Below are positions 16,992 to 28,246 of a stretch of 41,768 nt of DNA, in pieces. Under the pieces are notes generated by a model. That model saw only the letters and a program-made list of their open reading frames with translations. It was not told where the DNA came from and did not search any database. Both the position numbers and the translations under genes were made by a program. Position 1 is the stretch's first letter. The number at the start of each line of letters is the position of its first letter. Source of the DNA: Euryarchaeota archaeon (GTDB lineage: Archaea > Thermoplasmatota > SW-10-69-26 > JACQPN01). The DNA lies in assembly GCA_016207515.1 (NCBI GenBank), contig JACQPN010000024.1:1-41768 (forward strand). The letters run 5' to 3'.

Positions 16992-18770
16992 CTACTTTTC
17001 CCCTTCACTGGGCCCTGTTTTGTGGCGGGGTGGATGGCCGGTGTCGCGCGCGTCCTCGAAGAACCCAACGTGGAGCTGACCTTCGAGCGCTTCATGGAGA
17101 CGCGTGACGAACCCCCAAAAGAGCACGGCGAAAGCGAGGACCACGATGCCGACACCCAAGAGAAGCTCCCGCGAAACCGCCGCGCGGGAAGCGAAAAAGA
17201 CCACGATGACGACTGTGAAGACGAGCGCGACGAGGAGCAGGACCGCACCAGCCGCGCTTCGGAGAAGTCGCGCGCGCTCCCCCTCGGGTCTCACGAGCAG
17301 CGAATAAAGCGTCTGGAGACTTGTGAAGAGGGAGAAGAACGCGGGGATCGAAAGAAGCGTCGCCCCCACCCACACGATGAGAAGCGCGTTGGTGCGATTC
17401 TGGGCCGCGACGAGTCCCGGCACTATCCGGGCGAGAAGGACCGTGAGGTTCACGAGTATCGCAAGAAAGAGCGCTGAGACGAAAACGCGCCGAAGGACCG
17501 ACCGCGCTTTCCTGCCGGAGGGCGAGTCCGCGGCGATCCTTGCCCGGGCCCTTCCGACCCACGCCGCGTAGTACCCGGAGAGTAGATGCAGCTCCCTCGG
17601 AGCCCGGTTATGGAGGGCGATGGCGCCCCTTGCCACACCCGCTGCGTACGGGGGGGCGACGATACTCGTGATGAGACAGAGGCTCGTTCCCGCTGCAAAA
17701 ACGAGGGCGCCCTCGCTCGTTGCCTGACCGAGGACGGTCGAGAGCACGATCGCGAACGTCCCGTAGCGTCCCATCGTCGCGCCGATCCTCACGCTTTCGA
17801 CTGCGCTTCGCCCTGCGAGGAAGAAACCGGATCCTGCCCCGATGGTCTTCGCTAGCATCGCAACCGCCACGATCGCCCCGATCGCCGGCAGGTTCGAAAG
17901 CGCAACACCGGGATCCATGAGAAGCCCCATGGAGATGAAAAAGAGGCCGAGCGCGGTCTCGCGGCCCATCTCGACGACGCGACGGAGCCGCTCTCCGCCT
18001 ACCGATTGGGCGACTGCGGCCCCCATCACGAAAGCGCCCAGGGCCGGTGAGAAGCCGAGCTCCGAGCTCGTCACCGCCGCCGCGACGGCGAGCAGCGACG
18101 CGGCGACCCCGATCGGCCAATCGCGTCGCGATCGGACCAAGGCGCGCATGATGTAAGGTGCCGCGATCGCAGAGAGGCCGACGAGGACCAGCATGAGAAG
18201 CGCCGTCTGCCCCATCGCCTCCGTCACCTCCACGGCGGAGAAGGAGCCGGAAAGGATAAGCGCCGAGAAGACGGCGAGGAGGGCCGCGGCGGCGACGTCT
18301 TCCATGAGGAGCACGCCGACGACCACGTCCTTTGAAGGGAGGTCACGGTTCTCCCGCCGGAAGGAATAGAGGACCAGCGTGGTGCTGCTGATGGACATGA
18401 CCGCTCCCAAGACGCCGCTTGCGATAGGCGAAAGGCCGAGCGCCTGGCCCAGGGTGAACCCTAAGACCAGGACGACGAGGACCTCGATCACGGTTATGAA
18501 CGCCGCGACACCGCCGGTCTTCGTGACCTCTCGGATGGAAACATCGGTGCCAAGGGCGAAAAACGCGAGGACGATGCCGCCGAGGGCCACGAACTGCGCC
18601 ATCTCAAGGCTGATCGGTTGAACCGGGCTCGGTCCCCCGCTTGCGAACACCACGCCGACGACGAGGTATAGGGTCGTCGGTGGAAGCCCTACTTTGCGAG
18701 CGATGCGTTCCGTGACGAGCGCGGCGCTCGCGATGAGGATGCTAGCGAGGATGACGTCTTCGCCTGCCAC
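16992..18770 (-). CDS. CPA2-family (Kef-like) monovalent cation:proton antiporter, paralog 2
   Basis: The protein has the full exchanger domain of the CPA2 family: about 11-12 spans with FALGTDVSIREV, SISSTTLVLYS, LLMEDVAAAALL and GFSPALGAFVMGAAVAQS. A second membrane region of about four spans follows from ~residue 430. It lacks the C-terminal TrkA-C domain of its upstream paralog. Start GTG 18770 is chosen because it gives exactly the paralog's distance to the conserved P-P of the first span; GTG 18809 is open too. It probably exchanges K+ or Na+ for protons at the membrane. It is last in the run of minus-strand genes with two ArsA-like ATPases. Confidence 0.88.
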   Translation of the reverse strand: MAGEDVILASILIASAALVTERIARKVGLPPTTLYLVVGVVFASGGPSPVQPISLEMAQFVALGGIVLAFFALGTDVSIREVTKTGGVAAFITVIEVLVVLVLGFTLGQALGLSPIASGVLGAVMSISSTTLVLYSFRRENRDLPSKDVVVGVLLMEDVAAAALLAVFSALILSGSFSAVEVTEAMGQTALLMLVLVGLSAIAAPYIMRALVRSRRDWPIGVAASLLAVAAAVTSSELGFSPALGAFVMGAAVAQSVGGERLRRVVEMGRETALGLFFISMGLLMDPGVALSNLPAIGAIVAVAMLAKTIGAGSGFFLAGRSAVESVRIGATMGRYGTFAIVLSTVLGQATSEGALVFAAGTSLCLITSIVAPPYAAGVARGAIALHNRAPRELHLLSGYYAAWVGRARARIAADSPSGRKARSVLRRVFVSALFLAILVNLTVLLARIVPGLVAAQNRTNALLIVWVGATLLSIPAFFSLFTSLQTLYSLLVRPEGERARLLRSAAGAVLLLVALVFTVVIVVFFASRAAVSRELLLGVGIVVLAFAVLFWGFVTRLHEALEGQLHVGFFEDARDTGHPPRHKTGPSEGEK

Positions 18771-18835
18771 GAGAATGGTCCAGCCGGCCGGGAAAAGCCG
18801 CGTCCCCACATTTACAGTTTGCCAGACGTTGAGCG

Positions 18836-20896
18836 CTAAGGGCTCCCGCGTCCGCCTTCATCGACGGCGCCTCCGCGTCCGTCCCTTCTTCGTGCCTTGC
18901 CGCCAGCCTCGTCTTCCTCTGCCCCTTCGAAGGCAAGGAGTATCACGTCGCCCTCCTCGATCTCCGACGAGCGGGAAAACGTCGCGATCGGCCTGCCTGA
19001 TCGCCTTATGCCGATCACGGTGGAACCCTGGAATTGATCGTCAAAGCCCCTGGCGATCGATAGGCCCACGAGTCCGCTTCCGGCCGTCGCGACGATGCGC
19101 CTCATCTCCACGCCCTCGGGGTGGGCGTGGAGGAGCCTCTCGACCAGGGCCTCCTCATCGGGTCCCTCCTCCTCGCCACCGAAGAATGATTCATGCAGCG
19201 CGTACTCCAACGAGCGGTGGAACGAATCGATGGACCGCCACAGGACGAGCGCCGTGACGACGACGATCAAGCCAACGCCACCGACGACCTCCACGGGCGC
19301 GAGTCGCCCGGAAGAGAGCAAGAGCGCCATGACGCCCACGAAGGCGACGACCGAGAGGACAAGGAGCCGCGCGATCAGCCTCTTGAGGAGCACGGCTTCC
19401 CCGCCGGTCGGTCGGAAGAGAAGACGGAAAAGACTCACCGCCGACGCCGCCATCGACAAGAGCCCCGGAACCGCCAGTAACGCCGTGGCGAACCAGATAC
19501 CCATGGCCGCGTCGTCGTGGCGAACGTTGCCTCCAAGAAGAGGCGGGACGACCTTCGTGGCGATGAGGCCGAGGTTCACCATCACAGCGACCAAGACGGC
19601 GGACACGAAGATGCGCGCCATGAGGTGGCGGGCCTGACGGCCGGCCGCCGAGGTCGCCGCCGCGCGGGATCGCGCCCCCCTCATCCAACCGCGATAAGCG
19701 GACGAGAAGGACTTGACCGATCGCGGCGCCCCGCGCTCCAGCGCGCCGACGAGCGCCGACGTGGCCGCCCCCAACGGGCGGGCGGAAAGCGTCGACGCTA
19801 TGCAAAGTCCGGCCGCCGCCGCAAAGAGGACCGCCCCCTCGGTCGTCGTGGTCCCGATGACGCCGGCCAAGACGACGGAGAACTCCCCGAACCGCGCAAG
19901 ACGCGTCCCGGTGAGGCTCGCATCACGCACCGTCTCCCCGAGAAGGAACATCGACGTGGTCGCGGCAAGGGTCTTGCCGACGATCGCCACCACGGCGATC
20001 AAGAGGATGAGGGGAAGGTTGACGAAGAGCACGGTCGGTGACACGAGGAGGCCTATCGTCACGAAGAAGAAGGCGACGACGGCCTCGCGTAACCCCTTTG
20101 CGACTACGACCATATGCCGTGCGGCGTCCGACTGTGCGGCGGCGGCGCCCATGATGAAGGCGCCGAGGCCCGGCGAGAACCCGAGGAGAGTCCCTGCCCC
20201 GGCGGCCGTGGCGGTTACGGCGGCCGTCCCGATTATCGCCGGATAGTCGCCGCGGGGCCGGCTGAGAACACTCAAGAGCCGCGGCGCCACGAGCACGGCA
20301 AGGGCCGTGAAGACGAACAGCAGGATGACCGCGCGCCCAAGGGCACTTACGACCTCTCCGGCGGAGAACGAACCCGAAAGGCCCACGGTCGAATATAGTC
20401 CGATTAGGGTCGCGGCCGCGACGTCCTCCACCAAGGCGACGCCGAGAAGCACGCGCCGCGCCTCGTCGGACATTCGCTCCTCGCGAGTGGAATGAAGAAC
20501 TAGTGTCGTGCTGCTTATCGCCACGACGCCGCCCAAGACGGCGCTCGAAAGCGGGGAGAGACCGATGGCGCGACCTGCGGCGAATCCCACACCCGTCATG
20601 AAGACGACGCCTGTCGCCCCGGCAAGCGCCGCGACACCGCCGACGTTCACGATCTCGCGCACCCGGAATTCGAGGCCTAGGAAGAAGAGGGCAAGGACCA
20701 TCCCTATGTCGAAAAGGATCCGCGCGTTCTCCGGTCCGAGGAACTGCCCTGCGAAAGGCGTCTCGGGGCCGATGAGGATGCCTGCCGCGACGTAGAGAGC
20801 GACAGGGGGCACCTTCGTCAACACGGCGGCGCCTCGCGCGGCCGCACCGACCAACGCGACCATGGCACCGGCGACGACGAGTCCTTCAACCTCCAC
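18836..20896 (-). CDS. CPA2-family (Kef-like) cation:proton antiporter with TrkA-C domain, paralog 1
   Basis: The exchanger domain shows FFLGLEFRVREI, AISSTTLVLHS, ALVEDVAAATLIG and GFSPGLGAFIMGAAAAQSD. A four-span extra membrane region follows. Near the C-terminus GSGLVGLSIARG...STVIGIRRSGRP...EIEEGDVILLAF is a TrkA-C (RCK_C) regulatory domain, which in relatives binds a small ligand such as a nucleotide. A charged tail ends the protein. Start GTG 20896 has GGAGG six nt before it and lies inside the end of the upstream ATPase gene (11-bp overlap), so the two are translationally coupled. Paralog 2 follows after a short gap and was probably made by tandem duplication. Confidence 0.92.
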   Translation of the reverse strand: MEVEGLVVAGAMVALVGAAARGAAVLTKVPPVALYVAAGILIGPETPFAGQFLGPENARILFDIGMVLALFFLGLEFRVREIVNVGGVAALAGATGVVFMTGVGFAAGRAIGLSPLSSAVLGGVVAISSTTLVLHSTREERMSDEARRVLLGVALVEDVAAATLIGLYSTVGLSGSFSAGEVVSALGRAVILLFVFTALAVLVAPRLLSVLSRPRGDYPAIIGTAAVTATAAGAGTLLGFSPGLGAFIMGAAAAQSDAARHMVVVAKGLREAVVAFFFVTIGLLVSPTVLFVNLPLILLIAVVAIVGKTLAATTSMFLLGETVRDASLTGTRLARFGEFSVVLAGVIGTTTTEGAVLFAAAAGLCIASTLSARPLGAATSALVGALERGAPRSVKSFSSAYRGWMRGARSRAAATSAAGRQARHLMARIFVSAVLVAVMVNLGLIATKVVPPLLGGNVRHDDAAMGIWFATALLAVPGLLSMAASAVSLFRLLFRPTGGEAVLLKRLIARLLVLSVVAFVGVMALLLSSGRLAPVEVVGGVGLIVVVTALVLWRSIDSFHRSLEYALHESFFGGEEEGPDEEALVERLLHAHPEGVEMRRIVATAGSGLVGLSIARGFDDQFQGSTVIGIRRSGRPIATFSRSSEIEEGDVILLAFEGAEEDEAGGKARRRDGRGGAVDEGGRGSP

Positions 20897-21959
20897 TCGC
20901 CGCCTCCAGGCAACGTGCAAGCCGCCTTAGGGATCGGAGGTCCTTCACGCTCTCGCCAAGATCCGGGACGATGATGGGGCGGACCGAGAAGCTGTGCTCG
21001 AGCAAGGCCATGGCCCGTTCCTCTTCCTCGAGGATGCGCGCATGGAGCCGGGCGCTGCGGTCGATGCCGCGCACGAAATCGGCGCGATCATCGCCGGCAA
21101 GGCCCATGGACGGCCCTCCGTCAGAAAGGCGGTGCATGGCCGATGGGTCCGACCGCGGGATGACACGGTTCACGACGACGCCCGACGTCTTGAAGGCCAA
21201 CCGGGTCATCGACACCTCCAATTGCAAGGCGGACTCGATGGCCTGCCGCTCCGGGTTCGTGACGATGTAGTACGCCGTCTTCTCGGGGTCGCGAAGCAAC
21301 GCGTCCATCCTCCTTGACCGTTCTTCCAGGTCGACGAACATCTGGTCGAAGTTGTTGATGAACTCGGCGGCCTCATGGAGGAACCTTTGCGACGTCCATC
21401 GTGCGGCCGCGTCCGCGAAGCGGCCCCCCGCAAGGCGCACGATGCGGGACGGCTTGAAGAAGAACCGGACAAGGCCGGATTCGAAGACGCGCACCAGCCG
21501 CGAGGACGCAGAGAGGAAATCTATCGCGTGCGTCCTAGGTGGCGTATCGACCACCACGAGGCCGTAGCGGTCTTCCGCGAGGATACTGTCCAAGGTGCCG
21601 ACGGCCACGAACTCCTCGCTCCCCGCGAAGGCGTCGGAAAGGTGGCTGTAGAACGTGGACGCGAGCACCTTCTCGCGCACTTCATCGCTCGGGGCGTACC
21701 TTCGGACGAGTTGATCGAGGGCGGATTTCGTGTCGAGCATCAGCGCCGAGAGGTCGCCTGTGACCTCGTGCTCCGCCCCCCCGAGTCCTACGCCCATCGC
21801 GTCCGCGAGGCGTCTTGCCGGGTCTACCGTCATCACGAGGGTCTTTCGATGCCTCGACGCCGAAAGCGCGGCCGCCGCGCTGAGCGTCGTCTTGCCGACC
21901 CCGCCGGGCCCAAGGAAGACCACGAGCCGTTTCGATTCAAGGTCTCCCTTGAGGCTCAT
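20886..21959 (-). CDS. ArsA/Get3-family ATPase, subunit with GPGGVGKTT P-loop
   Basis: The protein starts MSLKGDLESKRLVVFLGPGG and carries the P-loop GPGGVGKTT. It lacks the intradimer signature lysine of standard ArsA/MinD P-loops, which is Pro here. Switch I reads VDPARRLADAMG rather than the DPAHS of Get3/ArsA; switch II is VVDTPPRTHAIDF. The arsenite-binding cysteines of ArsA are absent; the only Cys is near the C-terminus. It therefore resembles the second member of the paired actinobacterial ArsA-like ATPases (Rv3679/Rv3680 type). It overlaps the upstream ATPase gene by 4 bp (ATGA) and the downstream antiporter gene by 11 bp. Confidence 0.9.
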   Translation of the reverse strand: MSLKGDLESKRLVVFLGPGGVGKTTLSAAAALSASRHRKTLVMTVDPARRLADAMGVGLGGAEHEVTGDLSALMLDTKSALDQLVRRYAPSDEVREKVLASTFYSHLSDAFAGSEEFVAVGTLDSILAEDRYGLVVVDTPPRTHAIDFLSASSRLVRVFESGLVRFFFKPSRIVRLAGGRFADAAARWTSQRFLHEAAEFINNFDQMFVDLEERSRRMDALLRDPEKTAYYIVTNPERQAIESALQLEVSMTRLAFKTSGVVVNRVIPRSDPSAMHRLSDGGPSMGLAGDDRADFVRGIDRSARLHARILEEEERAMALLEHSFSVRPIIVPDLGESVKDLRSLRRLARCLEAASGG

Positions 21960-22813
21960 AGGAGCCCCTCCACGGTACTCGAGAGTTTCTCGGCCTTCGA
22001 ATCGCCAAAGACCATGGGCGCCTCGACGAGCGGCAGACCTATGTCGCGAAGCAGTTGCGCCTGTTCCTGCTGCGACTTTGAACGGGCAAGGATCACGACG
22101 AGCGCCCTCGCCGCCTCTTCCACCGCCGTGTCGCTTGCACGCGGCTGTCCTCGTGCCAGCTTCAAGAGTGTCGCCTGTGACCTTCGTCGTTCGAACATCG
22201 GGGGGATGTTCTTGTTCACGACGATCGCGCGGACCGTCATCGCCGCTTCGCGTAGCCTCAGGAGGAGGTCGGCCGTCTCGCGGACCGCCACCTCCTCGGG
22301 TGTTGTGACGACGACGACGCGCGTCACCGATGGGTCCTCCAGCATGACCCGTATCGCGCGGCAGCGGTCCTTGAGCTTCCCGACGAGCATCGCCTCGCTC
22401 TTTCCGGGCGCTTCGAAGAACGCCGCCCCGTGCCCCGTGGCGAGGCCGTCGACGACGATCTCGTCGTGGCGTCCAGCGAGTCCTATGTCCCTCAGTCGGT
22501 TGAGGACCGCCATCTCCTTGACGCCGGGCGCGACATCGACGAAGCTGTCGTAGGCGGCGCTTCCCGTCACCATGTGCGAGACGAGCGGGAACTTGAGGAA
22601 ATTGTGGAAGGCCTCGTCGACGAGGAGGCGCGGCTTGAATTCGAGGTGCTCGAACGGCTCCGCCGCGGCGCGTTGGCGCGTGGCACGGTGTTGGAGGGAA
22701 AAAAGGAGAGTCTTCCTTCCGGCGAGGCTCGCGCCGAGCGCGAACGCCTCCGAGATGGTGGTTTTTCCAGTTCCCCCTTTTCCCGTGAAGAACGTTATCC
22801 GGGGCCGCGCCAC
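21956..22813 (-). CDS. ArsA/Get3-family ATPase, subunit with GKGGTGKTT P-loop
   Basis: The P-loop TGKGGTGKTT contains the signature lysine that completes the partner's site across an ArsA-type dimer. The usual switch I Asp-Pro motif is replaced by SLQHRATRQ, and FVDVAPGVKEMAVLNRL is like the first member of the Rv3679/Rv3680-type pair. Conserved VVTTPEEVAVRET and a VVNKNIPP segment (the N-K nucleotide base motif) complete the fold. It probably forms a heterodimer with the next gene product, in which one subunit supplies the signature lysine (inference). There are no arsenite-type cysteines. Confidence 0.88.
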   Translation of the reverse strand: MARPRITFFTGKGGTGKTTISEAFALGASLAGRKTLLFSLQHRATRQRAAAEPFEHLEFKPRLLVDEAFHNFLKFPLVSHMVTGSAAYDSFVDVAPGVKEMAVLNRLRDIGLAGRHDEIVVDGLATGHGAAFFEAPGKSEAMLVGKLKDRCRAIRVMLEDPSVTRVVVVTTPEEVAVRETADLLLRLREAAMTVRAIVVNKNIPPMFERRRSQATLLKLARGQPRASDTAVEEAARALVVILARSKSQQEQAQLLRDIGLPLVEAPMVFGDSKAEKLSSTVEGLL

Positions 22814-22912: not shown

Positions 22913-23752
22913 TCAAAGGGGCGTGATTCCGAGGACGTCCATGGCCGAAACGGCCTCACTGGGAAGATCGCGTGGGTCGACGACCGCTCGCCTTGAGCCC
23001 GTAAGTTCAGCGGCGAGCGTCAACGCCCGCACGGGGTCGGACTCCAAATGGTGCCTGGCCAGCATGTGGCCGATGTTTGCCCGCCCCAGACGGACCGCGT
23101 CCGTCGGACGTGGAGAATAGTGGCCGCCCCCCACGCCAAGGCAAGTGGGAAGATCCATGCCCGCGGTCTCTTCGCCGAGGCCCATGATGGTGCGGGCGAC
23201 GGCCGCGGCCGCCTCCTCGTCGCCCCATCGCTCCTCGCTGCTTCCCACTTCAATGAAGAAGGACGGCGCACGCATCTCGGGCCCGTGGTGGGTCGCCTCG
23301 AACGAAACGTCGTAAGGCAGTCCCGCGGCGTTCTTCATCAAGAGGCGGAGTGCTTTCGACTGTAATGCCGCCGGCGCGGGGGCGAGCGTCCAAGGCTTTC
23401 CACCGTATTTCGCCTCGGCGAAGTTTCCGATGGGGTGGACCGTGAGTGTGTGCTTACGCGATGCCGCCTGGTGCCTTGACGCGAACATGAAGGCGGCGGG
23501 AACGATGCCTGTCTCGGTGCGAAACCCCAGGTCCAACCTTTCGTGATAGATGTGCAGGTCCTCGATCTTGCAGAGGATCAGCCGACCGTACCGAAGGACG
23601 TCACGGCCCCCAAAAGACCCGATCCTTTCCCACGACGCCGCGTCGTGGAGCGCGCGGCCGATGGTGACCGACGCCACATCGGGTTCGGATACCACCACCA
23701 CATAAGGAGGCGACGCGGAAGCGGAATCGTCCGTGGGGCCGTTTCGGGGCAT
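22913..23752 (-). CDS. dtdA: D-aminoacyl-tRNA deacylase, archaeal type (DtdA)
   Basis: Archaeal/plant DtdA motifs are clear: SRHQAASRKHTLTVHPIGNF, VSFEATHHGPEM, SFFIEVGSSEERW, LGVGGGHYSPR and NIGHMLARHHL. The His and Glu residues in these blocks bind the two zinc ions of the family. It removes D-amino acids wrongly loaded on tRNA. The start is ATG 23752, which has AGGGG about 6 nt upstream; an in-frame GTG at 23782 overlapping the TRAM stop is an alternative. It lies between the TRAM gene and the ATPase pair on the same strand. Confidence 0.93.
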   Translation of the reverse strand: MPRNGPTDDSASASPPYVVVVSEPDVASVTIGRALHDAASWERIGSFGGRDVLRYGRLILCKIEDLHIYHERLDLGFRTETGIVPAAFMFASRHQAASRKHTLTVHPIGNFAEAKYGGKPWTLAPAPAALQSKALRLLMKNAAGLPYDVSFEATHHGPEMRAPSFFIEVGSSEERWGDEEAAAAVARTIMGLGEETAGMDLPTCLGVGGGHYSPRPTDAVRLGRANIGHMLARHHLESDPVRALTLAAELTGSRRAVVDPRDLPSEAVSAMDVLGITPL

Positions 23753-23781
23753 CGTGTCCCCTTTGGCGCCCGTCGGCGCCA

Positions 23782-24165
23782 CTATTGGTCGTCTTCTTCC
23801 TTCGCCCAGACGCCCTCGTCCTCAAGTTCCTCGTCGTCGCCCGCGTCGGTCTCGGGTCCGTCGACGTCGCCAGCGCCCTCTTCCTCGGCGGGCGCGGGGC
23901 CTTTCGTTTCGGCTTCGACCGCGCTCACGGGGCCGCCGGCCTTGACGACCTCGGCGAAGGCGAGTTTGCGAAGCACCCGGGTCACTCGGACCTGCACGGC
24001 TTCCCCCACTTTCGTGTTCGGGACGAAAATCACGAAACCGTTGATACGAGCGATGCCGTCGCCTTCCTTGCCGACGTCCTCGATCTTCAGCTCGTACAGG
24101 TTCCCTTCCTTTACAGGCGGCGGCCTGGGGGCACTTTTCGCCGGAGCGCGGTTTCCGAAAGCCAA
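23782..24165 (-). CDS. stand-alone TRAM-domain RNA-binding protein with acidic tail
   Basis: The TRAM domain occupies about residues 17-75 ([43 protein letters not shown]). It is followed by an acidic, low-complexity tail ending EEDDQ. Archaeal single-TRAM proteins are thought to act as RNA chaperones or accessory factors in RNA metabolism. The start used is TTG 24165, nine nt after CAGGAG; TTG 24198 is also open. It is the first gene of the minus-strand run that continues into dtdA. Confidence 0.88.
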
Positions 24166-26113: not shown

Positions 26114-28246
26114 CTACGCGACCTGAACGCGCACCGAATTGTTGGCAAGGTACGCTTCCCATTTGAACGTGACCGTCATCCTGCGTTCGCCCCTGATCGC
26201 GAGTACCTTCTGATCCCGTAGTTTCTCGTTGACGATCAAGCGCACCGCGATGCCGCCCGCGTCCTTTTTCGACGTGTTCTCAAGCGTGATGGTCGTCGTG
26301 ACGATCTCCCCTCGAACGACCTCCTCGGGCTCGTTCTTCACCTCTAAGATGTGGACGTCCTCGAAACCGGAAGGCGCCCCTGGTATCGCTCCGCTCGGAA
26401 GGCCCGATTCCAACTCCTTCTCTATGAGCGGTCGCTCGGCGGGTGTCGGCAGGTCCGGAAGCTCCCCCTCGGGCAGCGACTCGTCCTCCCCCATCTCGGC
26501 CGAAAGGGAGAACACGTCTTCCTTCGGGCCGGGCCTCGCGATGGGCTCTTTCGGCCCCTGGCGGCCCTTTTCGCGCACCGGCCTCACGCGCTTCTCCTTC
26601 GCAGGGCGTGCCGCTTTTCCTTTCCGAACCACGATGACCTTGGCCGTGACGGAGCGCTCGTACTTAGGGCGCCGTTTCGAACGAAGGACCACTTCGACGG
26701 TCTTTCGCGACGGCGCTGGCCAATCCTGCGGCGGCTTGAGAAGAAGGCCGAGCGTCACCGTCTCCCTGGGGTCCAACGTGAATTCCGTGCGCGCAAGGCT
26801 TGCGGCCCAAGCGCTCGGAAGCGGTTCGAGGCCGAGTTGGACGTACTCCGGCAGGCGGCCCTTGTTCGTCACCACGATATCGAGAAGGCGTGCCTTTCCG
26901 GGCTCGACCATGAGGCGGGCGGCCTTCAACTTGAGCAGGATTTTCGGCCTGGTCGAAAGGCTACCGAGCACGATGACCAAAATGATGAGAAGGAGCAGGA
27001 GCAAGAACACCATAGACAGGGCATCGGCGTTGTCACGAAGCGTAGGAACGCTCGCGAACATGGACCGGAAGGAATCCGCGACCGGGCGAAGCGGATTGAA
27101 GGGTTGCGCGAACTGGCCGTCCGGGCCGTCGTTTCCGCCCGTATTGTTCCCCGTCTCGTTGTTACCCGCAGGACAATCCCCGACGCTCGGTCTCAGGGAA
27201 CCATCGGGACAGGTCTCCCCGACGGGCGGCCCCTGACCAGTGGAGACACGAGCGAGAAGGTCGGCGACGTCGGTTGCGCCTCGAGCCGAAACCGCGTAGA
27301 TGGCGACGGCCTGCGTCTGCCCCGCCGGCGGGTTCGGAGGGGCAACGACCTCGACGGTGAAATTGGCGCTCGCATTGCCTTCCATCCGGAAGCGGAACGG
27401 CGTGATGATCACGTCCCACCCGGGAAGAAGCGTGGAATTGGTGATGTTTATCGTGTCCTGAAGGTCACCGAGGTTCTGGAGCGTCATCGAGAAGTTGACG
27501 CTGTGACCTGGCTCGACCACGAGGTCGCGCTCGGCCGCGATGAGCTTCACCTTCGCGACGGTGGCGGTCTCGTACGTGAAGTTGATGTACGACGGGTGCT
27601 GCTCCGAGTCGTAGATGAGGCGGAATTCGTTTGCGGTGGCCTCCGGAGGCACCTCCGGGGGTGTGGGGGGGACCAGTTCGTTCGCCGCGATCGCCGTGAA
27701 CCCAACGGCTATGGAATGTCCTCGCTCGATCACGGGGTTCGTGAGGTTTCGCGTGGGGATAACGAAGACCTTGCTCGGTTTTGGTGCAAGCGGGTGGAGA
27801 CTTGATCTCGCTTCGAGTTCTATTTCCTGGCTCTCCTCACCAATCTTGATCAAGGTCCCATTCGGCGGGAGATCGTAAAGCGTCATGTTCACGAGCTTGA
27901 CAGCCGCGACGGTCGCGTTGGTATCGTACCAAATGACGCCCTGGACGTCGTTCGAGATCTTGAAGGACTCGGCGGCGCCGAGTTCAAGGTCCAAGACCCA
28001 CGCGTTCGGGTCGTAACCGATGTCGATGATCGAGTCTGCCGGGCTCGTCGGTCTGAACGCGTCCATCGTCCTTTGGTCGACGCGGCCTAGGAACGATTTC
28101 GTCTTGTTGTGGAGGAAAAGCTGCGACTCGACCGTCACGACGGCCTCTGCCGTGATCGGCAGGAGCGCTATGGAGGAAAGCAGGAGGCCGACGAGCAAGA
28201 CCGCGCTGTAGCGGCCAGGTCTCGTCAAGGGGTTCGTTTCAGCCAA
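26114..28246 (-). CDS. large one-span surface protein with Ig-like (NEW3/CARDB-type) domains
   Basis: The 710-aa protein starts with a signal peptide (YSAVLLVGLLLSSIALL). Its ectodomain of about 370 residues includes a NEW3-like block (VEPGHSVNFSMTLQNLGDLQ, PPNPPAGQTQ) and many N-glycosylation sequons, then an NETGNNTGGND linker. A strong span follows at about 405-430 (MVFLLLLLLIILVIVLG). Unusually, another 280 residues come after it. They contain a second NEW3-like unit (VTNKGRLPEYVQLGLEPLP), a Lys/Arg/Pro linker and a CARDB-like end (VVRGEIVTTTITLENTSKKD). TTG 28246 is 27 nt after a TATA element. Role unknown. Confidence 0.8.
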   Translation of the reverse strand: MAETNPLTRPGRYSAVLLVGLLLSSIALLPITAEAVVTVESQLFLHNKTKSFLGRVDQRTMDAFRPTSPADSIIDIGYDPNAWVLDLELGAAESFKISNDVQGVIWYDTNATVAAVKLVNMTLYDLPPNGTLIKIGEESQEIELEARSSLHPLAPKPSKVFVIPTRNLTNPVIERGHSIAVGFTAIAANELVPPTPPEVPPEATANEFRLIYDSEQHPSYINFTYETATVAKVKLIAAERDLVVEPGHSVNFSMTLQNLGDLQDTINITNSTLLPGWDVIITPFRFRMEGNASANFTVEVVAPPNPPAGQTQAVAIYAVSARGATDVADLLARVSTGQGPPVGETCPDGSLRPSVGDCPAGNNETGNNTGGNDGPDGQFAQPFNPLRPVADSFRSMFASVPTLRDNADALSMVFLLLLLLIILVIVLGSLSTRPKILLKLKAARLMVEPGKARLLDIVVTNKGRLPEYVQLGLEPLPSAWAASLARTEFTLDPRETVTLGLLLKPPQDWPAPSRKTVEVVLRSKRRPKYERSVTAKVIVVRKGKAARPAKEKRVRPVREKGRQGPKEPIARPGPKEDVFSLSAEMGEDESLPEGELPDLPTPAERPLIEKELESGLPSGAIPGAPSGFEDVHILEVKNEPEEVVRGEIVTTTITLENTSKKDAGGIAVRLIVNEKLRDQKVLAIRGERRMTVTFKWEAYLANNSVRVQVA

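Follow-up and report, generated by a model that had tools for sequence, protein, structure and literature searches.

The window, that is the whole stretch of DNA analysed here (41,768 nucleotides), is one entire contig (C24; JACQPN010000024.1) of an archaeal genome of the Thermoplasmatota (GCA_016207515.1; 2.67 Mb, 98% complete). On its minus strand lie two adjacent genes, A and B, encoding non-identical ATPases of the ArsA/Get3 fold, followed by two genes, N1 and N2, for antiporters of the CPA2 superfamily and preceded by the gene of the D-aminoacyl-tRNA deacylase, DtdA:

A, 21956-22813, minus strand: BagA/Rv3679-like ATPase of the ArsA/Get3 fold, 285 amino acids
B, 20886-21959, minus strand: BagB/Rv3680-like ATPase of the ArsA/Get3 fold, 357 amino acids
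N1, 18836-20896, minus strand: CPA2 cation/proton antiporter, 686 amino acids from GTG 20896
N2, 16992-18809, minus strand: CPA2 antiporter, paralogue of N1, 605 amino acids
DtdA, 22913-23782, minus strand: D-aminoacyl-tRNA deacylase, conserved neighbour upstream of A-B within the archaeal class

A first-pass annotation of the sequence had described the genes A to N2 as an operon that couples the ATPase pair to the antiporters, and the genes themselves were found as it had placed them, with a 4-bp overlap of A and B (21956-21959) and an 11-bp overlap of B and N1. The latter overlap depends on the start of N1 at GTG 20896 that the gene caller chose; the longest open reading frame (ORF) begins at 20920. 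All four ORFs were also picked by a codon-usage gene caller, whose training data came in part from these genes. The GC level is even across the gene junctions, so nothing points to a chimeric join. Since N1 overlaps B and is separated from N2 by only 26 bp, co-transcription is likely, and A-B-N1-N2 probably forms a genuine transcription unit in this genome. DtdA is not claimed to belong to any machine formed by A and B. Farther along, the window encodes a predicted protein of 694 amino acids with CARDB and Ig-like domains (26114-28198), which is probably located at the cell surface.

Family of the two ATPases

Both proteins match the Pfam family ArsA_ATPase (A 71.9 bits, B 112.3 bits; cut-off 24.3). 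The best match of B in the PDB is Rv3680 of Mycobacterium tuberculosis (6bs3_B; E 2e-44 over the length of B), and A matches its partner Rv3679 (6bs3_A; E 1.4e-11); in NCBIfam, BagB is the top family for B and BagA the second for A. In the maximum-likelihood tree A groups with bacterial A proteins (support 93), B with bacterial B proteins (100) and Get3 stands separately (100), the window proteins each falling inside an archaeal subgroup of their own. The two genes are paired in all seven genomes of the class. Judged by these matches and the tree, A and B are relatives, from an archaeon, of the Get3-like A/B proteins of mycobacteria (Rv3679/Rv3680, BagA/BagB), a kinship that the first-pass annotation had named and that is hereby borne out.

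Two more familiar assignments were rejected. Neither protein reaches the cut-off of the Get3 model TIGR00345 (A 67, B 97.1, against 135 bits), and B lacks the signature lysine; a Get3-like gene on contig C12 of the same genome passes it with 180.9 bits, so the A-B pair is additional to Get3. Assignment to ArsA is ruled out by the cysteines: there is one in each protein (Cys151 in A, Cys350 in B), hence no arsenite triads and no CxxC, in agreement with what was first noted. No arsenite carrier that could serve as an ArsB/Acr3 partner was found among the window genes examined.

Split catalytic residues and the predicted heterodimer

The P-loops of the two proteins, read correctly in the first annotation, differ in the signature lysine: A has GKGGTGKTT, in which the signature lysine is kept, and B has GPGGVGKTT, in which it is absent. 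B has an intact Walker lysine, DPARR in switch I and DTPP in switch II, while in A the DPA of switch I is replaced and the region reads FSLQHRA. The same division was seen when 52 A proteins and 68 B proteins were surveyed: the signature lysine is present in 52/52 A and 0/68 B, and the switch-I motif DPA[KR] in 63/68 B (of the five exceptions, at least one has DPSR) and 0/52 A. The Walker lysine is found in all 68 B proteins and is changed to arginine in 19 of the 52 A proteins. B of the window also has a helical insert of about 50-60 amino acids at the position of the client-binding region of Get3, which A lacks; an insert of 47-70 residues is present in all 23 aligned B proteins and in none of the 21 aligned A proteins.

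Gene order and gene fusion were surveyed as well. Of the 42 loci of the genome_contigs set, 29 have A immediately 5' of B, and one has the two fused. In one actinobacterial order, A and B form a single ORF in three genomes (L106:6999-8882, L129:1498-3363 and L130:1498-3513), and nearly all the remaining loci fetched there have A adjoining B. A structural model of the fusion (predicted local distance difference test 75, predicted template modelling score 0.65) has as its best PDB matches two-domain ArsA structures, which cover both halves (E 3e-17, TM-score 0.53 by query length, root-mean-square deviation 9.2), followed by 6bs3_B (E 1e-15) and TRC40. As a mixed alignment of A and B proteins placed every row on one half of the fusion, four rows were made for paired depth by reading through the single stop (written as Q) between in-frame A and B genes; these rows are an alignment device and not proteins.

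The paired genes, the division of catalytic residues and the natural fusions indicate, indirectly, that A and B very probably form an obligate heterodimer, so that the corresponding proposal of the first annotation appears well founded. Together with the ArsA-like fusion model, the split residues and the fusions suggest one composite ATP site, in B. From established structures of Get3 and ArsA it is known that the signature lysine acts in trans. By analogy, A would provide this lysine to B, with ATP sandwiched at the A-B interface, and B, the single hydrolysing site, would bind and cleave it by means of its Walker lysine, switch-I aspartate and switch II, while the site of A itself would be degenerate. 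Cycling of ATP may then open and close the dimer, so that a client, hydrophobic or associated with the membrane, would be held and then let go. Since the helical insert occurs on B alone, any client chamber would be one-sided.

Antiporters and other neighbours of the pair

N1 and N2 belong to the CPA2 superfamily, sharing the Na_H_Exchanger core (PF00999; 116.1 and 117 bits, cut-off 26.2) with NapA and KefC, to both of which the core of the N1 model is nearest. They are sister paralogues of 37% identity. N1 has about four transmembrane helices beyond the CPA2 core, which are modelled with low confidence, and a truncated TrkA_C-like C-terminus that stays below threshold (23.9 vs 27 bits); N2 has the extra transmembrane region and lacks TrkA_C. 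Where KefC has a TrkA_N (KTN) domain, these proteins have instead the extra four-helix region with a partial TrkA_C or none, and they remain under the TIGR00932 cut-off. Membership in KefB/KefC was therefore rejected (no TrkA_N; at most 53.6 bits against cut-offs of 752-804).

Is the antiporter link conserved? The first-pass annotation had proposed a gene-neighbourhood survey and had held that the link would be a local accident if related pairs never lay next to CPA2 genes. Searches of the seven class genomes with PF00999, together with gene maps, revealed no CPA2 gene beside A-B in the other six (G001-G006). Since phmmer with N1 and N2 alone missed divergent CPA2 proteins, a hidden Markov model was built from 27 CPA2 sequences; it recovered 29/29 control loci, most of which had also supplied training sequences, so that this is no independent test. 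The model found no CPA2 gene in the 42 genome_contigs loci, in 27 actinobacterial B loci and two of the fusions (1.5-kb flanks), or in 28 loci of a Bdellovibrionota-type phylum (to which the Silvanigrella-like genome G391 belongs) and two that were fetched again (1.5-kb flanks). Altogether no CPA2 gene was seen near about 95 B loci beyond the class genomes, 38 of them with flanks up to 8 kb, 29 actinobacterial and 28 of the Bdellovibrionota type, in locus sets that overlap partly and include some loci ending at contig edges. A conserved ATPase-carrier gene linkage of the ArsAB kind was thus not found for A-B with N1/N2. The survey speaks for a local accident: the proposed coupling of the pair to the antiporters, with none of the six class relatives and none of the other loci showing it, is left unsupported, and the A-B-N1-N2 operon is not a conserved system.

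Within the class it is the order DtdA-A-B that is kept, in G002, in G004 and probably in G003, where a fragment at a contig end matches DtdA (E 8e-8). The nearest relatives of N1 and N2 are single genes in G002 (contig C102) and G004 (C45), on contigs apart from the A-B pair. Read most simply, this means that N1-N2 joined a conserved DtdA-A-B block in the lineage of the window, the duplicated CPA2 gene having come to lie downstream of it probably by a lineage-specific rearrangement. Other tandem CPA2 pairs of the class occur in G005 and G006 (L060:8629-12261, L061:2513-5840) and were considered as orthologues of N1-N2; this was rejected, as the tree shows separate duplications. The same two genomes encode a protein of 1065-1072 amino acids with FAD_binding_4 and 2Fe-2S (Fer2) domains downstream of B (L068:10651-13869, L067:1682-4879). 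Two further loci (L066, L069) come from metagenome-assembled genomes entitled Proteobacteria and Halobacteriales, yet they match this archaeal class and are probably mislabelled.

A different neighbourhood was found in the Bdellovibrionota-type phylum, in which 44 of 58 genomes contain B. A precedes B in 29 of 30 loci and is itself preceded by a TatA-like gene in 23; MlaE comes downstream in 29, usually directly after B, the remaining locus stopping at a contig edge; longer loci continue with MlaF- and MlaD-type genes. Pfam confirmed TatA_B_E and MlaE in example loci. Loci with TatA-like, A, B and MlaE genes include L087:6599-12351, L085, L091, L092, L096, L098, L104, L158-L183 and L185. No published description of this arrangement was found in a literature search that missed most subscription journals and the key mycobacterial papers. 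The genes around A-B vary widely in the archaeal class and in actinobacteria, spirochaetes and myxobacteria, and many of them do not encode membrane proteins. In spirochaetes, mostly of the Leptospira type, A-B is preceded by the gene of a large protein that combines TCAD9, phosphotransferase-like and phosphatase domains (L100:4639-6939, L097, L099, L102, L107).

Possible roles of the pair and likeness to known systems

We consider it probable that A and B constitute an archaeal Get3-like heterodimer with a single hydrolysing site in B, and that its CPA2 neighbours are lineage-local. Several observations weigh against this. Twelve of the 42 genome_contigs B loci have no linked A (L070, L072-L076, L079-L081, L084, L086, L093), though B still lacks the signature lysine there; genes upstream of lone B were tried as divergent A partners and rejected, five of six being unrelated enzymes and that of L073 matching nothing. 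The fusion model was built at a depth of 16 sequences, and its deviation from ArsA is near 9 Å. A of the window retains its Walker lysine, and in M. tuberculosis the ATP-binding motifs of both subunits are reportedly needed; A may therefore still bind nucleotide. The equivalog cut-offs are missed by a wide margin (A 61.1/400 for BagA, NF053622; B 182.8/521 for BagB, NF053621), so that A and B are to be termed relatives of BagA/BagB and not BagA/BagB themselves; other bacterial A/B pairs likewise miss these cut-offs, the models being narrow mycobacterial equivalogs. Finally, the family of the window is sampled by one genome, and for this reason a coupling to antiporters confined to that family may still be real.

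What, then, might the pair do? That it energises, gates or inserts both antiporters, as ArsA does ArsB, is very improbable. Such a role would fit the likely co-transcription, the extra transmembrane helices and TrkA_C-like domain of N1, which could receive a regulator, and the presence of a membrane transporter gene, MlaE, beside the pair in another phylum. However, CPA2 genes are missing at the pair in the six other class genomes and every other examined locus, homologues of N1/N2 in G002 and G004 lie on contigs without it, CPA2 antiporters are driven by ion gradients and need no ATPase, and co-transcription implies no functional dependence. Of the first annotation's view, the membrane-related part gains some support from the MlaE and TatA-like genes of one bacterial phylum, while the driving of N1/N2 finds no support. 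A general membrane role for A-B is plausible. In its broad form, as an ATPase for maturation of membrane proteins or membrane lipids whose clients vary from lineage to lineage (lipid transporters of the MlaE type in a bacterial phylum, CPA2 antiporters in the window), it is a possible, if tentative, explanation: the genes around B in one phylum (TatA-like, A and MlaE, then MlaF and MlaD if the sequence extends far enough) and the kinship with Get3, which targets tail-anchored proteins, argue for it, but the diverse, often non-membrane neighbours elsewhere argue against it, and gene order does not prove a client relation.

The mycobacterial phenotypes bear on the same question. A citrate-tolerance screen in M. 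smegmatis recovered insertions in both mgtE and bagAB (PMC10597346), which would suit a general maturation role, but its authors attribute the bagAB hits to glycerol toxicity and growth rate (PMC10597346). The glycerol and nitric oxide sensitivity of bagAB mutants, as cited there (PMC10597346), and the tRNA deacylase as conserved archaeal neighbour favour instead an ATPase that protects against stress or metabolites and has no membrane client, every transporter adjacency being incidental; this is unlikely, the near-invariant MlaE adjacency across one phylum being hard to call incidental. In a transposon screen of M. tuberculosis, Rv3679/Rv3680 mutants were fitter under streptomycin (PMC12216072). 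The accessible portions of these two reports name no client (PMC10597346; PMC12216072). A rather unlikely reading makes A/B a widespread ATPase derived from Get3, with a single site, whose task would be to assemble or control membrane transporters of several subunits; it would be attached to MlaEFD lipid transport, with a TatA-like helper, in one bacterial phylum and have been recruited to CPA2 antiporters in this archaeal lineage.

The window pair thus adds a member from the archaea to a known, little-understood family, for which a crystal structure and scattered phenotypes exist and no client was reported in the literature searched. The survey carries the family into one class of archaea and several phyla of bacteria, and a simple residue rule predicts one active site built from both subunits. 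With this rule, the natural fusions and the TatA-A-B-MlaE order, the question of the client can be put to the test in bacteria that grow in culture. The antiporter link, from which the analysis set out, does not bear this weight.

Among known systems, Get3/TRC40 has the fold and nucleotide motifs in common with the pair, and B of the window keeps switch I, switch II and the helical insert, but Get3 forms homodimers in which both subunits carry the signature lysine, which B lacks. ArsA of ArsAB consists of two unequal ATPase halves, and the actinobacterial A-B fusions are alike in layout and modelled fold; unlike B, however, both halves of ArsA carry the signature lysine. The Get3-like A/B pair of M. 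tuberculosis (Rv3679/Rv3680; 6bs3, 6bs4, 6bs5) is likewise encoded by two neighbouring genes of the ArsA fold, A before B, with the signature lysine kept in A and absent in B, as here. The window pair differs from it in being archaeal and distant in sequence, and by its linkage to DtdA and, in this one genome, to antiporters.

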